Below, one piece after another: positions 7,036 through 25,906 of a stretch of 64,000 nucleotides of DNA. The notes beneath the pieces were generated by a model. The model saw only the letters and a program-made list of their open reading frames with translations, made no database searches and was not told the DNA's origin. The translations under genes and the position numbers were made by a program. Source of the DNA: Laspinema palackyanum D2c (GTDB lineage: Bacteria > Cyanobacteriota > Cyanobacteriia > Cyanobacteriales > Laspinemataceae). Position 1 is the stretch's first letter. Each line of letters begins with the position of its first letter. The DNA is taken from the NCBI RefSeq assembly GCF_025370875.1, contig NZ_JAMXFD010000001.1, forward strand, positions 553,819 to 617,818, written 5' to 3'.

Positions 7036-7126
7036 TGGAGGGGTTGGCTAGAATGAGAAAGAACCGATCGCAGGTGAAACTGCGATCGCCTCGGCTGCAT
7101 CTAGTTGCACCCACTGTTTAGAAACT

Positions 7127-8188
7127 ATGCAATCAATCATGTTTAGAAAACCTAAAATAATTGCAACGATTCTCCTAGCATTCGCGATCGCGGTGGCGGT
7201 CCATTGGATTGGGTTTGATCGCCCGATCTTCGCCCAATCCCCTATCCCAGAAACGACCATTGCCGCCAACTCCCTGCAATTAGCACCTCCAATTGACTGC
7301 ACTATAGACGAAGATTGCTTTATTTTGCTGTATCCCGATCGCGACCCCGGACCGGGAGAAGTGGATTTCGGTTGTGGGAGGCAAACCTTTGATGGTCACA
7401 CAGGGACCGATTTTGGCGTTGCCAATACAGACAAAATGAACGCTGGGGTTGCGGTCCTGGCTTCCGCCCCGGGTAAGGTGTTGCGGGTCCGCGATGGGGT
7501 CAGCGATCGCCTGATTACGGACCCCAAACAACTGGAAGCCGTAGAAGGGCGAGAATGTGGCAATGGGGTGTTTATTGAACATGGCAATGGGTGGGAAACT
7601 CAATACTGTCATCTGCGCAATGGGAGTGTTGCAGTCCGTCCCGGAATGGAGGTGGAGAGGGGGACGGTTTTAGGCATGGTTGGCGCTTCTGGGGCCGCAT
7701 CGTTCCCTCAAGTTCAGATTACCGCCCGGTATGAAGGAGAGGTGGTTGACCCGTTTGTGGGACCGGAAGCAGGTCCCGGTTGTCAGGTGTCGCGCAATCC
7801 GATTTGGACCGTTCCCCTGGATTATACTCCGACAGGGGCGATCGATGCCGGTTTTGCGGATACGCCTCCGGAAATGGATGCGTTGTGGGAAGGGGGATTT
7901 CCCCAAGGTGAGCTATCTCAAGATATTCCGGCCATTTTGTTCTGGGTACATATATACGGGGTGTTAGCGGGGGATAGTTATCAGTTTAAGTTGATTGCAC
8001 CCAATGGACAGGCCAGCGTGGAAGATACCGACGAAATCACTTCCCCCAGTAAACTCTGGATGGGTTATGTCGGTAAACCCAACAATCCCGATCGCCCGAT
8101 CGCACCGGGGGTCTGGCGTGGGGAGTATCAATTATCCCGAGGGGGTGAGGTCCTGGTGGATCTCGTTCGGGAAATTGAAGTGAGGTAA
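7127..8188 (+). CDS. Secreted M23/LytM-fold protein with degenerate active site
   Basis: 353 residues with an N-terminal signal peptide (hydrophobic stretch then FAQS near residue 38). Residues ~70-215 have the LytM/M23 layout: GHTGTDFG gives the usual first zinc ligands (H and D), and EHGNGWETQYCHL matches the central strand. The last motif, normally HxH in a sequence like PHLHFEV, reads FPQVQIT here, so both histidines are glutamine. Zinc endopeptidase activity is therefore doubtful. The protein may bind peptidoglycan or regulate amidases, as degenerate LytM proteins do. The C-terminal ~130 residues form an unassigned beta-rich region. Two start codons (7127 and 7139) are possible. Neither has a clear ribosome-binding site. 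Confidence 0.8.
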   Translation: MQSIMFRKPKIIATILLAFAIAVAVHWIGFDRPIFAQSPIPETTIAANSLQLAPPIDCTIDEDCFILLYPDRDPGPGEVDFGCGRQTFDGHTGTDFGVANTDKMNAGVAVLASAPGKVLRVRDGVSDRLITDPKQLEAVEGRECGNGVFIEHGNGWETQYCHLRNGSVAVRPGMEVERGTVLGMVGASGAASFPQVQITARYEGEVVDPFVGPEAGPGCQVSRNPIWTVPLDYTPTGAIDAGFADTPPEMDALWEGGFPQGELSQDIPAILFWVHIYGVLAGDSYQFKLIAPNGQASVEDTDEITSPSKLWMGYVGKPNNPDRPIAPGVWRGEYQLSRGGEVLVDLVREIEVR

Positions 8189-8198
8189 AATATAACTT

Positions 8199-8223
8199 CG
8201 TGACTTGGTTTTACCGAGTCACG
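8199..8223. terminator. Bidirectional terminator between convergent genes
   Basis: CGTGACTTGGT and ACCGAGTCACG form an 11-bp stem (one G-T pair) with a three-base loop. It sits in the 48-bp gap between the convergent M23-like gene and the CHASE2 gene. Confidence 0.7.
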
Positions 8224-8236
8224 AGTACCCGGTTTG

Positions 8237-11200
8237 CTATTTTTCGGTCATTGCTTCTATCCCGGCCCACCCTTGAGGAACCCCCTGTTGAATATATTTC
8301 TCACAACGCTGTAAATATAGAAGCGCCGCCCGATCGCTGGGGTTAAGGGTGATAATTTGCTGAAAGAGGCTTTGAGATGTCTCAAAATTGCCTTCTTTGT
8401 AAGCGGTGATCGCCATTTCAAAATTGGCTAGGGTTTTGTTTTTAAACTCGATGCGATCGGGGGATTCAGAATCGTAAATTTCAAAGACTGAGATGCTGGC
8501 TTTTTTTCCTTTGACTTGCACTCGGTCTAAAAATCGATATTGATAACAATTCCGGTTATTCAATTGATTGAGGGTATCTTCACTAATCAAAATTTCTGCA
8601 CCATACAGTTTGGTTAATCCTTCCAAACGAGAGGCTAAGTTGACCGCATCAGAAATGACGGTACTTTCCATCCGGTCTTGTTCGCCAATGGTTCCTAACA
8701 TTAAACTGCCAGTATGTAAACCGATGCCGATTTGAATAGGGACTTTGCCGAGTTGTTGTCGCTGTTCGTTGAATAGTTGGACTCGCTGCTGCATGGCGAT
8801 CGCCCCAGAGACAGCATCATCAGCAGAGTCAGGAAATAAGGCCATAATTGCATCCCCAATATATTTGTCAATAAATCCATTATGTTCGGGAATGACGGGG
8901 CTAACGCGACTTAAATAACTATTAATAAAATCAAACGTTTCTTCCGGAGACATGGTTTCCGAGAGGCTGGTAAATTGCCGGATATCGGAAAATAAAATGG
9001 TCATTTCTTTTTTGATGTGGTTGCCCAATTTCACATCAACAATACTTTCTTGTCCTAAAAATTTTAAAAAGTCATGGGGGACAAATCTGCCATAAGCCGC
9101 ATTAATTTTAGCAAGGCGAATATGGGTTTTAATTCGGGTCAGTAGTTCATTTTTATTAAAAGGTTTCATCAGATAATCATTGGCCCCGGCGTTAAACCCT
9201 TCTACCAGGTCAGAAACTTGATTTTTGGCAGTAAGCATGACGATGGGGAGGTCGATCGCCGCAAATTGTTGACGAATTTTTTCGCAAACTTCATATCCGG
9301 TCATCCGAGGCATCATGACGTCAAGCAGGATTAAGTCGGGCTTAAAGCCATTTTCAATAATTTCTAGGGCTTTTAAACCATTGGCGGCGCGGGTAATGGC
9401 GTAATTTTGCAGAGAGAGGGTATTCGCGAGAACTTGCAGATTGATGGGTTCATCATCGACGATTAAAATTTTAAATTCTGCACCTTCGGCGATGTGAATT
9501 TCTGTGACGAGAACGGGGGGATTTGAATAAGGCTGGTCACTGCCTGGGGCTGGGGTACGGATGATGTTTTCCGAAGCAACTACGGGGGGTTTTGTAGGGG
9601 CGACGGTGGCGGTTGTTTGGGGTAAGGTAAAGGTAAAGTGTGACCCTTTTCCGACTTCAGATTCAACCTCAATGGTTCCGTGATGTAATTCAATGAGTTG
9701 CTTGGCGATCGCCAATCCCAATCCCGTTCCCCCATATTCTCGGGCGGTGGAACCATCCGCTTGTTCAAAGGATTCAAAAATGCGACTGATTTTGTCTTGG
9801 GGAATACCAATTCCGGTATCGGTAACGGTAATGGCTACGAAGTCTTCTACAATTTTAGCCGAAACTTCAACGAAGCCGGATTCGGTAAATTTGATGCCAT
9901 TACCGATGAGGTTATGGAGGATTTGCTGCACCCGATTTTCATCGGCATTGACGGCGATAAAGTCTGGGGGGATGGCATTAATCAGTTGCAACTCTTTATC
10001 CCCAATTAGGGGTTTGCTGAGGTTGAGAACGACTTGGGCGATCGCCCGCAAATCCAAGGGTTTGAGTTGCAGTTCAATCTTTTTATGTTTGAGTTGAGAA
10101 AAATCCAGGATATCATTGACTAAATGAGATAACCGGCGACCGCTGCTGGTAATGGTTTCTAAGTTGAAAATAGTCGGGTCTGATAAGGGTCCCGTTACCC
10201 CATCAATTAAGGAATCGGCAATGCCAATAATCCCATTGAGGGGGGTTCTCAGTTCATGGGAAGTATTGGCTAGAAATTCATCTTTTAGTCCATCAAGACG
10301 TTTAAGTTCTTGATTTTTTTCTTCTAAAGTCTTCGCATATTCAGCTAATTGCTGATAGGATAATTTCAGGTTACTCCAGAGGGTGTAACCGATGCTGAAT
10401 ACTCCCGCAGTGACGAGGGCTAAGACGGGGGTGAAGACGGGAATTAATAAACCGGACAAAAACGCGATGTAGGAAGTACCAATTAGGACAACGGTCCCGA
10501 GGAGAATTCCCAGTCCGCACCAGCGGGTTTTCAGCCAGAGGGAACCGAGGATAGCACTATATCCAGAACTGAGAAAAATTAACCCCCATTTAAAGGATTT
10601 GGGGGTGGGATAGAGCATCGGACGATTGTCGAGGGCGCTACTTAAAATTTGGCTGGTTAAGTTGGCATGAATGACCACTCCGGGCATTAATTCAGGGTTG
10701 CCAAACAGGGTATTCGTATAGGGGGTTTGAAAGGAGTCATTCAGACTCGGGGCTGAAGCCCCGATGAAGATAATGCGATCGCGGAAGAAATCCGGGGGAA
10801 TTCTATTTTGTAAAACCTCGGTGAGGGAAATGTGAGCAAATCTGTCGAGTCCCCCGCGATAGTTGACTAATATTTGATAGCCACCCCCATCTTGTTTGCT
10901 ATATTCTCCCTCGTTGCCGGTGAGGGGAATAAATGTCCCTTGGCCCAGTTTATAAATGGATTGGGCTTCATCAGCAACTGACAATTGAATCCCTTCTGTT
11001 TCTAAATATTTTAAGCCTAAAAAGGTGGCGATTCCTTCGCGTAATGTCCCATCGGGTTTCCCCACTAATACCATACCCCGGCGGATTTTGCCATCGCGAT
11101 CGAGTAACATATCGTTGGCGGCTACTTGTCCGAGTTCCGCTAATCGGGGCGGAGGGGCAATCGGATTTCCGGCAACTTTTTCTACCCCAATTAGATTAGG

Positions 11201-12586: not shown

Positions 12587-15181
12587 TCATAACCAATTGC
12601 CGACTAAAATAAACGCCGACCAATAATAGGGATGTTTGTGCAAGGGGTCATTTAATAGGGCCAATTGAGCTCGGCGCAATGCCTCTGCTTTTGTCATTCC
12701 TGCCTCGGATCGGGTTAATTGGCGATAAAACTCGCTCATTAAATTAGCGGTGGATTGGTCGTGAACGGACCAGAGACTAGCCAGGGTGCTGCGGGCTCCG
12801 GAACGGAGTGCAAATCCGGCTAAACCGAGTGTAGCACGTTTATCTCCAGTTGCTGTTTGACAAGCACTCATTACTAATAGATCAATGGGTTTGAGAATCC
12901 CTAGGCGTTGCTTATTGAAAAACTTATCGAAATCTTTAATAAAAATTCGCCCCTCCCAGGTCAGCAGAAAAGTTTCCTCGGGATTAGAACTAAATTGTCC
13001 GTGGGTGGCGAGGTGAATGATGGGGTAAGATTTGCGATTGAGTTGAGCTTCCAATTGGGCGCGGGTAAATTGGCGATCGAGCAACGTATCCCCGGGAACT
13101 TCCTGGGTAATTTGTTGGAACTCTTCGGCGACTCCCGGAAGGGGGGAAAATCCTTGTCGTCCTTCGGTTAATCCGGCGGTGAGGGCGGTGAGTTTTTCCT
13201 GGGTGAGTCCTTGGGGGAACAGTTGGAACCCGGGACTGAGGGCGGTATTATAGGTTTCAATTAAATAGCGGTTGCCGTCATACAGTGCGGCGAGGGGAAT
13301 GGAGGCAAAACCGCCATCAGGTATAAAAACCAGGGTGGCAATCTCACTTCTAGCTAAATCTTCTTCTGCCGGTCGAATCAGCCAGTCATAGACTTGGGCA
13401 AAGAGGCGCAAGCGTTCCGGGGAGGAATAGCCGGGGTGCATGGCCGATCGCAGGTCTTCGAGGGTGGCTTCGATGCGACTGCCACTCAGGGGCGTGGTAT
13501 AGTGGCGCAAGGGTTGACCGGGCAGGGAAAGTATCACTTCCAGGCGATCGGGTAAGACAATGGGATAAATGGCTGCTGCTTGGGTATCAATTTCCTCTAA
13601 TTGTACCGGCTGCATATCTAAACAAGCCTCTCGGAAAAAGTTGTCTAATTCAGCGATTTGCAAGGCTTCCATGACTTGTCTAGCCTGTTCAATCTCTTCC
13701 GGGGTGGCATCGGGTTGGAGGAGTAAACTCACCAATTCGCGATAGACAGGTTCTACACTTTCTTTGAAATCAAACTGGAGGTCCGGAGAAATGGCTACTA
13801 AGTCTCGGCGCAAGGTTTTCAAGGTTTCAAAGGCAATATTATACGCCGTGAGGGCAGGGTGGAGTTGCTGCTGCTGGGTGAAAATCTGACCCAGTTGCCA
13901 AGCGGCAGGGGCGATAATTTCATCGGCTTGGATGGATTGGGCAATTTGGAGGGCTTGTTCGGTCAGGGTTTTGGCCTCTTGCCACTGTTCGGCTTGGCGG
14001 TAAATCTGGCCGAGTTGGGTGAGGGCGTAGGCTTGCGATCGCCCATCTTGCAGGTCCTTGGCGATCGCAATGGCTTCGGCTAACCCTTGGGCAATTTCAG
14101 GCAAATCTTCCCCGATTTTGCTCCAAGTGGCGGCAAAATTGACGCGGGCATAGAGGGCCGCCTGACTAGGGGGAAGGCTGTCCAGGTGAGATTGCAGTTG
14201 GGGGCGTAATCTACGGGCGGCATCCCAGTCACCGAGGGCGATAAATAGGCTAAACTGGTTGAGTTGGGCTTGCGATCGCGTTAGGGGGTCAGTGGCTAAT
14301 TGTTCCGCTTGTTGATAGTAGGTAAGGGCGATATCATTGCGGTCTAAATACCGGGCGATGTTCCCGATATTGAGTAAGGTGGCGCTAGTATCCCCCGGGG
14401 ATTGGAGGCGATCGCTGATTCGCCAACTCTGTTCTAAAACCGCCTGGGATTGTTCTAAATCCCCGATGGTTTGGAGGGCAACCCCCAAACTCCGCAATCC
14501 ATCAGCTTTTAACAGGGTATCCGGTTTTTGATCTAATTCGATAATCCATTCCTCTAACAAAGTGCGGGCGCGGCGATACTGGCCCAAGGCTTGCAGGGCT
14601 TGGGCTTGGTTGATCAGACTCCCTAATTTACCCAGGTCATCTCCAGCGCGAGTATAAGTCGCTGCGGCTTCTCTCCAGGTGTCTAATGCCGCTTGATTCT
14701 GTCCAGCAGCGAGTTCGAGAATGCCTCGGGTATTCAGGGCTTGGGCAAAAATTGCCAAGCCTCTGGAGGGCAGGGGATTAACCTGTTGCAAGAGTTCCAA
14801 ACTCTCGGCGATGGCGGTGACGGCTTGGGGGCGGCGGCCCAACTTATGATAGGCTAAGGCCAAATAAGTGAGAGTTTGGGCTTGGTTTAACGGGGCGAGG
14901 CGATCGGTATAAATGGCGGCTGCCTCTTCCCATAGCTTAGTTGCTTCTATGAATTGTCCCTGCTGATAGTGGTTTGTGCCCCGTTCGACTAATTCGGTGG
15001 GGTCGGGGGTTTGGTCCTTGGTCATTGGTCCTTGGGCATTTGTCCTTGGGGGATGGGGGGTGGCGGGATGGGGGTGGAGGGTGGTGAGGATGATGAGGAT
15101 GGTGAGGAGGGTGAGGAGTGGGAGGAGGAGGAATTGTCGGATTTTACGGTACTTTAGATAGGTGGTGATGGGTTTGAGCAT
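12587..15181 (-). CDS. TPR-CHAT caspase-like protein
   Basis: 864 residues. An N-terminal membrane helix (~17-35) is followed by a proline-rich linker, about ten TPR units (~70-480) and a C-terminal CHAT domain (~560-864). CHAT is a caspase-family protease fold. The predicted catalytic dyad is His727 in HLATHGQF and Cys774 in VMSACQTATG, and both residues are intact. The C-terminal block LASLWSVHDQSTANLM is typical of the family. The start codon lies two bases after the stop of the haemagglutinin-type gene at 15184, so translation is probably coupled. Some CHAT proteins are effectors activated by sensors. The tie to a secreted adhesin here suggests surface processing or a proteolytic response instead. 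The substrate is unknown. Confidence 0.92.
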   Translation of the reverse strand: MLKPITTYLKYRKIRQFLLLPLLTLLTILIILTTLHPHPATPHPPRTNAQGPMTKDQTPDPTELVERGTNHYQQGQFIEATKLWEEAAAIYTDRLAPLNQAQTLTYLALAYHKLGRRPQAVTAIAESLELLQQVNPLPSRGLAIFAQALNTRGILELAAGQNQAALDTWREAAATYTRAGDDLGKLGSLINQAQALQALGQYRRARTLLEEWIIELDQKPDTLLKADGLRSLGVALQTIGDLEQSQAVLEQSWRISDRLQSPGDTSATLLNIGNIARYLDRNDIALTYYQQAEQLATDPLTRSQAQLNQFSLFIALGDWDAARRLRPQLQSHLDSLPPSQAALYARVNFAATWSKIGEDLPEIAQGLAEAIAIAKDLQDGRSQAYALTQLGQIYRQAEQWQEAKTLTEQALQIAQSIQADEIIAPAAWQLGQIFTQQQQLHPALTAYNIAFETLKTLRRDLVAISPDLQFDFKESVEPVYRELVSLLLQPDATPEEIEQARQVMEALQIAELDNFFREACLDMQPVQLEEIDTQAAAIYPIVLPDRLEVILSLPGQPLRHYTTPLSGSRIEATLEDLRSAMHPGYSSPERLRLFAQVYDWLIRPAEEDLARSEIATLVFIPDGGFASIPLAALYDGNRYLIETYNTALSPGFQLFPQGLTQEKLTALTAGLTEGRQGFSPLPGVAEEFQQITQEVPGDTLLDRQFTRAQLEAQLNRKSYPIIHLATHGQFSSNPEETFLLTWEGRIFIKDFDKFFNKQRLGILKPIDLLVMSACQTATGDKRATLGLAGFALRSGARSTLASLWSVHDQSTANLMSEFYRQLTRSEAGMTKAEALRRAQLALLNDPLHKHPYYWSAFILVGNWL

Positions 15182-22417: not shown

Positions 22418-22567
22418 ATGGTTTGGCAACCGGGTACGAAAATATTTGGCGATCGCTACATCATCGAAAAGCCGATCGAAGTCGGCGGTTTGGGCATCAC
22501 CTACTTGGTGAAAGACCGTCAGAGTCAACAGTTGGGGTTCAAAACCCTCAAAGATGAGGTGAGGTAA
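22418..22567 (+). pseudogene. Truncated Ser/Thr kinase N-lobe, 49 codons
   Basis: An ATG at 22418 opens a 49-residue frame: MVWQPGTKIF, then GDRYIIEKPI, EVGGLGITYL and FKTLKDEVR. This matches the first strands of cyanobacterial Pkn2-type kinases, with a glycine-rich loop and the lysine of the VAIK strand, and then stops. The rest of the kinase domain is missing. Its TAA overlaps the ATG of the next gene (TAATG), so the peptide may still be translated and couple the FGE gene. Kinase-FGE fusions occur in cyanobacteria, and this looks like one whose kinase was mostly deleted. Confidence 0.7.
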
Positions 22568-23589
22568 TGACCGAGGCAGTGGAACCGGGCGATCGTCCCC
22601 AAACCGTGGCGGCAGGACTGCCCCTTTTGCCCGACAGTGGCGGGGGTTTACCGTCCTTCACGTTTGAGACTGTGCGGGTCAACCGGCAGGGAAAAATTAT
22701 TGAGAAAATACCGGGTCAGGCGCGATTTTATCCCCAAGACTTGGGTCAGGGGGTGCGGATGGACATGGTACAAGTGCCCGGGGGAACATTTTTGATGGGG
22801 GCAGAAGAGGCGGAAATTGAGCAGTTAGGTAAAAAGTATAATAAGGATTGGTTTAGCTGGGAAATTCCTCAGCATTCTGTGCAGGTTTCGTCCTTTTTCA
22901 TCGGCAAAACCCCCGTCACCCAAGACCAATGGCGCACTGTGGTGACGCAAGTGGGGAAAATTGTCTGGGATCTGGACCCGGACCCATCCGACTGGAAAGG
23001 GGGGAATCGTCCCGTTGAAATGGTATCTTGGTCTGATGCAGTGGAGTGGTGCGCCCGACTGAGCAAGCTGACGGGCAAAGAATATCGCCTCCCCAGCGAA
23101 GCAGAATGGGAATATGCTTGTCGTGCTGGAACAACGACTCCCTTTGCCTTTGGGGAAGCAATTACCACAGAACTGGCAAATTATGAGTGGAATAGCAATT
23201 ACACCGTTGCTGAGGAAGCTACGGGGCAATATCGAGAAGAAACGACACCAGTGGCCAGCTTTCACCCCAATGGCTTTGGGTTGTATGATTGTCATGGCAA
23301 TGTTTGGGAGTGGTGTTTGGACCCCTTTCATGAGAATTATCAGGGTGCGCCTAGGGATGGTAGCGTATGGGATGAGACCACAAAAAAGAATGAGAATCGT
23401 TATCAAAAGCCTTCGGCAAATTTGAAAGTTTTGTTAGAAGAAAGCGATAAAATCTATGTGCTGCGGGGCGGTTCTTGGGCCGACTTCCCGATTCACTGCC
23501 GTTCTGCCTCCCGCTACCACGGCCAGTGCGACGTCTTCGACAACATCCTGGGGTTTCGGGTCTGTCTTGTGGGCGCAGGACTCTTATAG
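22567..23589 (+). CDS. Formylglycine-generating-enzyme family (SUMF1/C-type lectin fold) protein
   Basis: 340 residues. A short linker is followed by the FGE-sulfatase fold from ~residue 60 to the end: MVQVPGGTFLMG, FFIGKTPVTQDQW, RPVEMVSWSDAVEWCARLS, YRLPSEAEWEYACRAG, GLYDCHGNVWEWC, VLRGGSWADFP, CRSASR and GFRVCL. Bacterial members are seldom sulfatase activators. Many are ligand-binding or DGR-diversified display proteins. The last 45 codons have strong features of a DGR variable region (separate entry). The gene overlaps the kinase stump by one base. A pyrimidine-rich tail follows the stop, as after many cyanobacterial DGR targets. Confidence 0.9.
   Translation: MTEAVEPGDRPQTVAAGLPLLPDSGGGLPSFTFETVRVNRQGKIIEKIPGQARFYPQDLGQGVRMDMVQVPGGTFLMGAEEAEIEQLGKKYNKDWFSWEIPQHSVQVSSFFIGKTPVTQDQWRTVVTQVGKIVWDLDPDPSDWKGGNRPVEMVSWSDAVEWCARLSKLTGKEYRLPSEAEWEYACRAGTTTPFAFGEAITTELANYEWNSNYTVAEEATGQYREETTPVASFHPNGFGLYDCHGNVWEWCLDPFHENYQGAPRDGSVWDETTKKNENRYQKPSANLKVLLEESDKIYVLRGGSWADFPIHCRSASRYHGQCDVFDNILGFRVCLVGAGLL
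23479..23550 (+). other. Candidate DGR variable region at the FGE C-terminus
   Basis: Between the conserved LRGGSW and GFRV anchors, 18 of 24 codons end in C (GCC, GAC, TTC, CAC, TCC, TAC, GGC, GTC and so on) while their first two bases vary freely. This is the pattern left when AAC codons of a template repeat are rewritten at adenines by a diversity-generating retroelement. The conserved W, P, CRSA, R and GFR positions match the scaffold of known DGR lectin-fold variable regions. No reverse transcriptase or template repeat is in the window, so it would be a remote target. Confidence 0.55.
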
Positions 23590-23804
23590 CTCTTTACCCT
23601 TTAGCACTCTGCTCTTTTTTCCCCTTTACCCTCTTTTTGATTTCTTTGCGGGTTAAGAAACAGGGTTTCTGGGAGAGGCTAGAGGGAGCAGGGAGAGATA
23701 CAAGAAACGCGGTTTCTAGGGGAATTTTCAACCCGGACCCCCTCCAGCATAGGAACTCCATTGTTTTAGGTAAAGGCTGTAAGATAAAGTCGGGAGGATA
23801 AACT

Positions 23805-24074
23805 ATGGTTTCTCATCAATTATTAGAACTTGAACAGTCTATTCACAACTTGTCATTAGAGGATAAGTTATGGTTGCTTGATAAAATTTTTGAGCAAGTG
23901 CGGGGGACTGCTGAAAATGAGGAGGAAAGCTATCATCAAGAAAACATCGAATATGATGAGAGGGCGAAGCCGATTTGGGAAATTGCCGTAGAAATAGGGG
24001 CTAAAATCCCGGATTCTGAATGGGAAAAAGTACCGAGTGATTTGTCGAAAAACTTTGATTCATATCAAGGTTAG
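23805..24074 (+). CDS. Putative antitoxin of a PIN toxin pair
   Basis: 89 residues, acidic, predicted helical at the N-terminus (LLELEQSIHNLSLEDKLWLL), resembling small cyanobacterial antitoxins with a short dimerising helix region. It has no recognisable DNA-binding fold. It lies four bases before the PIN-domain gene, which is the main support for the call. Confidence 0.7.
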   Translation: MVSHQLLELEQSIHNLSLEDKLWLLDKIFEQVRGTAENEEESYHQENIEYDERAKPIWEIAVEIGAKIPDSEWEKVPSDLSKNFDSYQG

Positions 24075-24078
24075 GGGA

Positions 24079-24480
24079 ATGAGACGAGTTTTTGCAGATA
24101 CAGGTTATTGGGTGGCTTTACTCAATCCCAGAGATGACTTGCATCAAAAAGCCCGAGATTTGTCCCAAACAATGGGGTTGCTCTATATTTTTACCAGTGA
24201 AATGGTCTTGGCTGAGGTGTTGAATGATTTTTCTAAACGGGGTAAATTTTTTCGCGAGGTGGCGATCGCGTTAATTGAAAGTCTCTATAACCATCCGAAT
24301 GTAACAGTGATTCAGCAAAGTAGCCAGCAGTTTAAAGAAGGATTATTGTTGTACAAGCAAAGACCAGACAAAGAATGGAGTCTGACGGATTGCGTTTCTT
24401 TTAAGATTATGGAAGAATATGCAATTACAGAAGCCCTCGGTTACGACAAACATTTTGAGCAAGCTGGTTTTAATCCTTGA
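24079..24480 (+). CDS. PIN-domain toxin (VapC-like ribonuclease)
   Basis: 133 residues from the ATG at 24079, which has AGGGG close upstream and fits the family start MRRVFADTGYW. The PIN acidic residues are visible: Asp in FADTGYWVALL, Glu in SEMVLAEVLNDF, and Asp in WSLTDCVSF. The C-terminal part (EALGYDKHFEQAGF) is the usual PIN ending. Predicted to be a metal-dependent RNase held inactive by the upstream antitoxin. An alternative in-frame start at 24037 would overlap the antitoxin and is less likely. Confidence 0.85.
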   Translation: MRRVFADTGYWVALLNPRDDLHQKARDLSQTMGLLYIFTSEMVLAEVLNDFSKRGKFFREVAIALIESLYNHPNVTVIQQSSQQFKEGLLLYKQRPDKEWSLTDCVSFKIMEEYAITEALGYDKHFEQAGFNP

Positions 24481-24625: not shown

Positions 24626-25906
24626 ATGACGGTTTCAACAGTTTCTGCAAAAGGGCGAGAACAACAAGAGAAGCAGATTGCCCGATTTATTAAATTTAGT
24701 CTGATCGGGTCAGCGGTGGTGCATCTGGCGGCCCTGGCATTTGTGATGCCTTTGATTAATTTAAAATCGGAGGGAACTGAGGAACCGATCGAATTTATTG
24801 TCTTGGAAGAGTCTACACCAACAGCGGAAGACTCGATACCGGAACCGGAGGCGGTACCATCTGCCACTCCACAACCGATGCCGGAATCGGAGGCAATAGA
24901 ATCTGCTACCCCGGAACCCACCCCCGAAATGATGCCGGAATCGGAGGCAATAGAATCTCCCACCCCAGAACCCACTCCGGAACTGATGCCGGAACCCGAG
25001 GCGATCGCCTCTGCTACCCTAGAACCCGAGGCAATAGAATCTCCTACCCCAGAACCTACTCCGGAACTGATGCCGGAACCCGAGGTAATAGAATCTCCCA
25101 CCCCAGAACCCACTCCGGAACTGATATCGGAAGCTGAACCCCTGGATGCAGCGCAGGAAACCGCAGTCGCCGAAGTACCCGAAGCGATCGCCACGCCGAG
25201 CTCGGATTTGGAGGCAGAACCGTTATCCAGACAGAGGCCCCCGGAACCTATTGAAGACCCGGCCCCCATGCCGCCCCAGGAGATGTCTCCCTTTACGAAT
25301 TCTTCCCCTTTGGACCCCGGGCATAATTCCAGAATTACTAATTCTCAGGACATCTCACAGGGTTCGATGGTGACGGAATCCGTTACTCCAGAACGACTGC
25401 CGCAGGTCCCCGACGTCAAGATTGTTCAGGAAACGTGGGGAGGGCCCTCCCCGGTTAGATATGACTCGCCGTTCAATCCAGGGGTGATTGTCACGGGGGA
25501 ATCCGAGGACCCCTTTGAGTCGAATCTCGATCGCCTGTCAGAACCCTGGAACGAGACTGGGGGGACTCCCGAGGAAAATGAGGGTCAAGTCCCAGGGGGT
25601 GAGGCGGATTCCACCCTAGGCGAGACTAGAAGTTTGGGAAATGAGTCGGGACCGGAAGACAGTGCCTGTCGTCGTTGCGATCCGCCCCCCTATCCCCAAA
25701 TTGCCTTCGATAATGCCTGGGAAGGAACGGTAATTCTGATCGCCGATATCGCCCCGGATGGGACGGTGATTTCAGTAGACATTCAGCAACCCAGTCCTTA
25801 TCCGATCCTCGATAATGCGGCTAAAGAGCAAGTTAAAACCTGGATATTCGACCCTTCAGAAGGGGGTCAACAGGGGCTGGTGATTCCAGTCCTGTTTGCA
25901 CTTTAA
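24626..25906 (+). CDS. TonB-like energy transducer with Pro/Glu repeat linker
   Basis: 426 residues. One N-terminal membrane helix (~25-46) is followed by a long periplasmic linker rich in Pro and Glu. The linker contains repeated units of the form ESPTPEPTPELMPEPEAI. A TonB C-terminal domain occupies the last ~80 residues (CDPPPYPQIAFDNAWEGTV, IAPDGTVISVDI, KEQVKTWIF). TonB relays proton-motive energy from ExbB/ExbD to outer-membrane receptors. An ExbB/ExbD pair exists at 62379-63417 but is far away, and no TonB-dependent receptor is nearby. GAGGAG lies just before the start region. Confidence 0.85.
   Translation: MTVSTVSAKGREQQEKQIARFIKFSLIGSAVVHLAALAFVMPLINLKSEGTEEPIEFIVLEESTPTAEDSIPEPEAVPSATPQPMPESEAIESATPEPTPEMMPESEAIESPTPEPTPELMPEPEAIASATLEPEAIESPTPEPTPELMPEPEVIESPTPEPTPELISEAEPLDAAQETAVAEVPEAIATPSSDLEAEPLSRQRPPEPIEDPAPMPPQEMSPFTNSSPLDPGHNSRITNSQDISQGSMVTESVTPERLPQVPDVKIVQETWGGPSPVRYDSPFNPGVIVTGESEDPFESNLDRLSEPWNETGGTPEENEGQVPGGEADSTLGETRSLGNESGPEDSACRRCDPPPYPQIAFDNAWEGTVILIADIAPDGTVISVDIQQPSPYPILDNAAKEQVKTWIFDPSEGGQQGLVIPVLFAL
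24880..25130. repeat. Imperfect in-frame tandem repeats in the tonB-like gene
   Basis: Repeats of roughly 48-60 bp encode PTPEPTPE-(L/M)-MPE-(P/S)-EAIES. Near-identical stretches recur around 24900, 24950, 25040 and 25090, suggesting slippage or recombination that changes linker length. Confidence 0.75.

Follow-up and report, generated by a model that had tools for sequence, protein, structure and literature searches.

On the evidence of the comparisons given below, positions 22418 to 23589 of the window, by which we mean the whole 64,000-nucleotide stretch that was analysed, are a remote target of a diversity-generating retroelement (DGR) that lies on contig C11, and contain a remote variable region, VR2. 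Taking all parts of the reading together, we consider it quite probable that the locus derives from a DGR cassette, that its gene has lost the kinase and VR2 is frozen, and that the product is a fixed binder. The window corresponds to C1:553819-617818 of a genome of 7.03 Mb in 81 contigs (G000). Congeneric genomes for comparison were Laspinema sp. D2d (G007) and L. olomoucense D3b (G002), the genus search covered 8 genomes and the wider search 59 genomes, 18 of them with a match. Each species was represented by one genome. In blastn comparisons, matches of at least 36 bp were kept. The coordinates and features given in a preliminary description of the locus, made from the letters of the window alone, were found as described. 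From the kinase stump to the PIN-domain gene, they lie on the + strand.

The retroelement on contig C11 and its match in the window

The genome holds a DGR on contig C11, away from the window. A search of the genome with 23380-23620 gave, besides the query itself, two strong matches on C11, 1.7 kb apart. The C11 locus (L009) comprises a kinase-FGE target gene (7066-8817) with the variable region VR1 (L009 8692-8813), an Avd gene (from L009 8918), a reverse transcriptase (RT) gene (L009:9249-10307) and a template repeat (TR) that begins 20 bp past the RT gene (from L009 10328); all are present and open. Thus an RT gene adjoins a TR, Avd is present and the VR differs from the TR at adenines, with 17 of the 18 mismatches between TR and VR1 at A (p=1e-13). 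Over positions 0-104, VR1 has 17 changed A sites and no change elsewhere. VR1 also shows a 3-bp loss against TR inside the variable core. Laspinema D2d has the same TR/RT arrangement.

Avd on C11 matches NF033474 with 141 bits (cut-off 80; E 1.4e-41), and bAvd PF22296 is also above cut-off. The RT is the sole RVT_1 match in the 7.03-Mb genome. It is 66% identical to an RT gene on an Acaryochloris plasmid, where an annotated avd lies under the match, and shares 73% identity with an RT gene of the Fischerella plasmid AP018301, which is named as DGR-bearing in the text available from PMC7517822. Against NCBIfam it matched no DGR-RT model, the best being a group II intron maturase below cut-off (142.6 of 300 bits). 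PADLOC at E 0.01 assigned neither Avd nor the FGE protein to a family; the C11 RT matched 86 models, which among the 25 listed are mostly of other RT kinds. Its assignment as a DGR RT is accordingly a predicted one, made by neighbours and similarity and not by a DGR-RT model.

VR2 (23461..23585) is 81.6% identical to the TR of the C11 DGR, above the threshold of 50% VR-TR identity used in PMC7517822. Over 125 bases, 14 of 26 template adenines are changed in VR2, but 9 of the remaining 99 bases (p=2e-6), so that 14 of its 23 mismatches are at A. A pattern of the TR start with masked adenines matched three times in the 7.03 Mb, at the TR, at VR1 and in the window, and controls gave no match. VR2 thus combines adenine-biased homology to a TR, a position at the 3' end of a CLec/FGE gene and an RT elsewhere, as expected of a remote VR. 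The D2d ortholog of VR2 differs from it at 19 of 26 A sites and at 9 of 92 others (p=6e-10), which speaks for writing in the past. At the 3' end, a segment that we call IMH-like by analogy (23549..23579) closes with a fixed TR/VR difference at its final base, 23579, which is C in all three TRs and G in all eight VRs of the family of VR2. Within this segment VR2 carries further non-A changes at 23568 and 23571.

The preliminary description had proposed, from codon pattern, a DGR-like variable region, and had noted that no RT or TR lies in the window. Both lie on contig C11, and the near-match repeat beside the RT has A at most of the variable positions, as foreseen. Its count of 18 C-ending codons among the 24 between LRGGSW and GFRV (23479-23550, within VR2) was obtained again, whereas the preceding part of the ORF has 59 of 298. 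Among the 31 ATG-started ORFs of at least 150 codons in the window, 29 of 16,540 stretches of 24 codons contain at least 18 C-ending codons, and these come from four ORFs including the FGE ORF. By itself this bias is rare, not unique; it becomes meaningful because a matching template exists. Another ORF of the window (12590-15181) reaches 22 of 24 C-ending codons near one end and exceeds the VR in this respect.

A pyrimidine-rich tail, likewise noted earlier, follows VR2 (23592..23635) and is shared with VR1, being 91% identical in DNA to L009 8827-8871 on the 3' side of VR1 in the C11 cassette. A hairpin after the VRs was considered and rejected, as the sequence there does not fold better than shuffled sequences (z -0.20 in the window, 0.81 at VR1); the stretch after TR has a folding z of -1.88 against shuffled. 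Paralogs on contigs C8 and C16 were considered as additional targets and rejected, as they differ from the TR at 35 and 38 non-A positions.

The kinase deletion and the remaining protein

The locus begins with a kinase N-lobe stump (22418..22567). Its ATG lies at 22418, it runs for 49 codons, and its TAA (22565-22567) overlaps the ATG of the FGE ORF (22567) as TAATG; by comparison with relatives, the remaining kinase domain is absent. In blastn, the stump aligns at 80.7% DNA identity with the 5' end of the kinase gene on C11 and at 92.4% with the D2d ortholog. Unlike the C11 copy (Pkinase PF00069, E 2.9e-37), it has no complete Ser/Thr kinase catalytic domain, and its 49 residues alone gave no Pfam match at E 0.01. 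That stump and FGE ORF stem from a former kinase-FGE fusion, as had been supposed, is shown by a syntenic full-length ortholog in Laspinema D2d. This is a kinase-FGE gene with a VR, of 590 codons from the first start and 587 from MVWQPG, and its flanks are those of the window: Uma2, the PIN pair, and genes that we take to be phosphoketolase-like and TonB-like. In the window, the presumably TonB-like ORF (24626-25906) has internal repeats of ~110 bp with 88% identity, and the repeat matches vary by species.

The codons for LKTL and DRPQTV are 639-642 bp apart in five full-length relatives and 53 bp apart in the window. Window and D2d together fit an in-frame loss of 591 bp and an insertion of 5 bp. 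This insertion, absent from the five full-length relatives compared, is near-tandem (GAGGT-GAGGT) and is followed by the TAATG stop-start overlap, the two occupying 22556..22569; just 3' of this segment is the point where ~590 bp of kinase were deleted. The insertion creates TAATG and places GAGG 7 bases before the ATG, and the two ORFs may be translationally coupled there. The stump might then act as a leader peptide, as the preliminary description had suggested.

At the same site, blastn showed no kinase-FGE gene and a second Uma2 in D3b and G005, a kinase piece of 666 bp with part of Uma2 behind it, where the contig ends, in G006, and a Uma2 interrupted by ~3.7 kb without match in G004. In G001 the contig ends at this site, and in G003 it continues for 1.2 kb without match. 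Downstream of VR2, a stretch (23758..23796) is homologous to that behind the TR of the C11 cassette (87% over 39 bp, L009 10614-10652); between VR2 and this stretch blastn gave no match to Avd, RT or TR. The D2d spacer is 90% identical to that of the window. Then follow a small ORF, without match in Pfam, and a PIN-domain gene (PF01850, E 9.7e-7), a toxin-antitoxin-like pair (23805..24480). Synteny places the pair 3' of the DGR cassette in both D2d and G005 as well, and C11 has a PIN remnant there. The matches to the VR1 tail and to the post-TR stretch, together with the PIN pair 3' of VR2, point to a whole cassette as the source of the remote locus.

The FGE ORF (22567..23589) encodes 340 residues, the C-terminal half of the former kinase-FGE variable protein, with a predicted FGE-sulfatase (C-type-lectin) fold (PF03781, E 1.9e-52). 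Its AF2 model has a mean pLDDT of 79.4 and falls below 50 at residues 1-25, 194-203, 207-218 and 337-340. In Foldseek, PvdO (5hha, two chains) and then 2y3c take ranks 1-3. We take 2y3c, Treponema denticola variable protein 1, to be the DGR protein TvpA. The window protein resembles it in fold (Foldseek E 5e-17), and a C-terminal VLRGGSW...LGFR stretch of TvpA aligns in sequence with the window VR, but identity over the structural alignment is 24%. Profile and model thus identify the window protein as having the FGE fold, as a fold and not as an enzyme.

Whether the ORF still serves a function has to be weighed against the tentative reading, to which we give some weight though less than an even chance, that it is a decaying pseudogene of which neither part is used; this would be compatible with a frozen VR. 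The deleted kinase and the split frame fit such decay, as do 18 private amino-acid changes in the window protein compared with 2-7 in five relatives, and 20-24 own amino-acid changes compared with 3-4 in the D2d ortholog by relative-rate comparison. Against it, 340 codons have stayed open, dN/dS of the FGE body is 0.17-0.28 against the five relatives, and none of the 31 residues that are invariant across the other 18 aligned homologs has changed. Private silent changes are likewise more numerous in the window (11 compared with 3-5), and the nonsynonymous share is not significantly raised (p=0.32). These figures indicate a longer branch and leave neutral decay unproven. Relaxed selection after kinase loss was also considered and set aside, as neither the relative-rate p of 0.013-0.098 with four outgroups nor the private changes amount to proof.

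Is VR2 still written?

We compared 12 VR/TR pairs with both partners in one genome. VRs without a TR of their own (D3b, G049, and G021 at 3994843) and other VR-like matches were left unpaired. The pairs were aligned locally, with 2-3 bases trimmed at the TR 5' edge in four pairs of G021 and G027, and non-A changes were counted before the boundary, taken as the first difference fixed between TR and VR towards the 3' end, at position 113-128 depending on the family. Eight cis VRs lie beside an open RT; seven of them have no such change and one has a single change. Here the RT of D2d, which has 348 codons and a TAG just short of the end of the C11 RT alignment, was counted as intact, and for the second DGR of G002 the VR would have one change before the next difference if C113A were not the boundary. 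The remote VR of G017 has none. The window VR2 has eight, and does not show the non-adenine match of an active target; its D2d ortholog has six, and the VR of G005, which lies beside an RT remnant, has seven. VR2 of the window thus resembles a VR that lacks a working RT, even though one is present in its genome.

Over positions 0-104, compared with the TR of the same genome, the cis VR1 of G000 and of D2d have no non-A change, and the two VR2 have six and five. Together this gives 0 of 160 sites in the cis and 11 of 161 in the remote VRs (p=8e-4), and within G000 alone 0 of 80 in VR1 and 6 of 81 in VR2 (p=0.03). T87, found among three TRs only in that of D2d, is also carried by D2d VR1, as if cis VRs followed their template. 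Of the two possibilities offered in the preliminary description, a remote target or a stranded relic, remoteness is borne out, and a relic-like state is favoured because the non-A changes of VR2 are absent from VRs beside intact RTs. VR2 is probably no longer written; most likely, it is frozen and not refreshed by the present TR, and VR1 still follows the TR.

Three of the six core non-A changes of VR2 fall on the five non-A sites at which the TR of D2d or G005 differs from the local TR (p=0.002). T44 and T75 are the letters of the G005 TR, and the T48 site is A in the TRs of G005 and D2d. At sites 5 and 87, variable among the other TRs, VR2 agrees with the local TR; its changes G57C, C64A and C66T are not accounted for by the three TRs compared. 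The overlap with template-variable sites suggests that VR2 was last written from an older version of the template.

That the C11 DGR instead still writes VR2 in trans, be it rarely or in part, appears improbable to us. RT, Avd and TR are open in the genome, the A sites of VR2 differ widely from the D2d ortholog, and an adenine-biased and open VR2 could be rewritten in trans on occasion. In its 3' tract (23537-23567), refreshing could leave no mark. Trans-writing has been inferred in Thiohalocapsa (PMC10907252, in the text available), and the G017 remote VR agrees with its TR at every non-A site before the boundary. This last case also weighs on the other side, since none of its non-A sites is changed and at most one in the eight cis VRs, compared with eight in VR2. 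Agreement at all non-A sites does not by itself prove activity, and a mismatch does not prove silence. Replication-strand bias as a cause of freezing (an idea in the accessible text of PMC12875486) was rejected, as the window shows weak GC skew of changing sign. A DGR-free origin, with an ordinary FGE paralog rich in C-ending codons, as other stretches of the window are, and resembling the TR by ancestry or gene conversion, is scarcely credible in view of the adenine bias against the TR and between orthologs and of three adenine-masked matches, one directly past an RT gene with Avd, and it would need a misassembled TR/RT neighbourhood that D2d shows in identical arrangement.

For the preferred reading, a frozen remote target, we propose the following order of events. 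As known from the family, an Avd-RT complex would copy TR RNA with errors at A, and the resulting cDNA would replace the VR. Duplication of a DGR cassette together with the PIN pair downstream would be the simplest origin of the remote locus. Avd, RT and TR would have been lost from it before the split from Laspinema D2d; later, in the window lineage, loss of ~590 bp of kinase and gain of 5 bp would have left the FGE/CLec binding domain standing free behind a stump. VR2, written for the last time from the older template, would since have gone unrefreshed by the present TR. Lacking kinase output, the product would probably be a fixed ligand-binding domain, be it a stand-alone binder or an early relic.

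Several related loci were met in the search. In G017 the remote VR ends a gene that reads as caspase-like-CLec (L142 4645-6567, G017:C72), and the TR lies in L079 (G017:C54); the one RT match of this genome is on another contig than the remote VR, which is likely an active trans target by its agreement with the TR. A decaying DGR in G005 (L071, G005:C1:7366000-7385000) retains residues 288-352 of the RT, the last 65, and the TR, followed by the PIN pair, with no Avd match. VRs of the same family in G049 (L078) and G021 (L076, G021:C1:3986000-4004000) are orphaned, with no matching TR among the matches of the 59-genome search; G049 gave no RT match at E 1e-30.

Relation to known remote targets and meaning

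Remote VRs are of a kind already described in cyanobacteria. The text available from Vallota-Eastman et al. 2020 (PMC7517822) counts 76 remote targets among 21 genomes, knows both CLec-only paralogs and kinase-CLec remote targets, and describes all3226 of Nostoc PCC 7120 with remnant TR-VR homology and no RT nearby. The remote proteins described there share with that of the window a C-type-lectin-like module that carries the VR at its 3' end and often follows a Ser/Thr kinase. The window differs from them in that comparison with a syntenic full-length ortholog reveals its kinase loss as a deletion, and that its VR can be judged stale against the TR of its own genome and related TRs. In Thiohalocapsa PB-PSB1, remote VRs are likewise judged by non-adenine match to a TR elsewhere, and such a match to a distant TR is taken to argue for trans activity; DGR1 of this organism matches perfectly and yet shows no variation, whereas VR2 does not match (PMC10907252, as far as its text is available). 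In cultured Nostoc punctiforme, adenine mutation is described as low yet detectable in the accessible text of PMC12691664. The metagenome survey of PMC8144416 would overlook remote targets, as stated in its available text. PMC9500459 covers eight Laspinema strains, of which D2a and D2b share 97.6% ANI. The word retroelement does not occur in its main text, as far as that text was available, and a limited literature search gave no paper title on frozen remote VRs, which does not prove their absence.

The window locus is a real element of a known sort, whose late history can be read unusually well. As this case shows, codon pattern alone can be enough to recognise a remote DGR target, and comparing the non-adenine sites of a remote VR with the present TR is a simple way to ask whether it continues to be written. 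With the VR1/VR2 pair and the ortholog pair of D2d, halted writing of a VR despite an intact-looking DGR becomes directly testable. One might go further and suppose, since the cis VR1 is in step with its template and the remote VR2s of two species are not, that remote targets in Laspinema are uncoupled from a working DGR and that VR2 is an archived, kinase-free fixed binder, acting alone or in competition with its kinase-linked paralog. We regard this as speculative and rather unlikely. If true, the writing history of DGRs could be dated from fossil template letters in such VRs.
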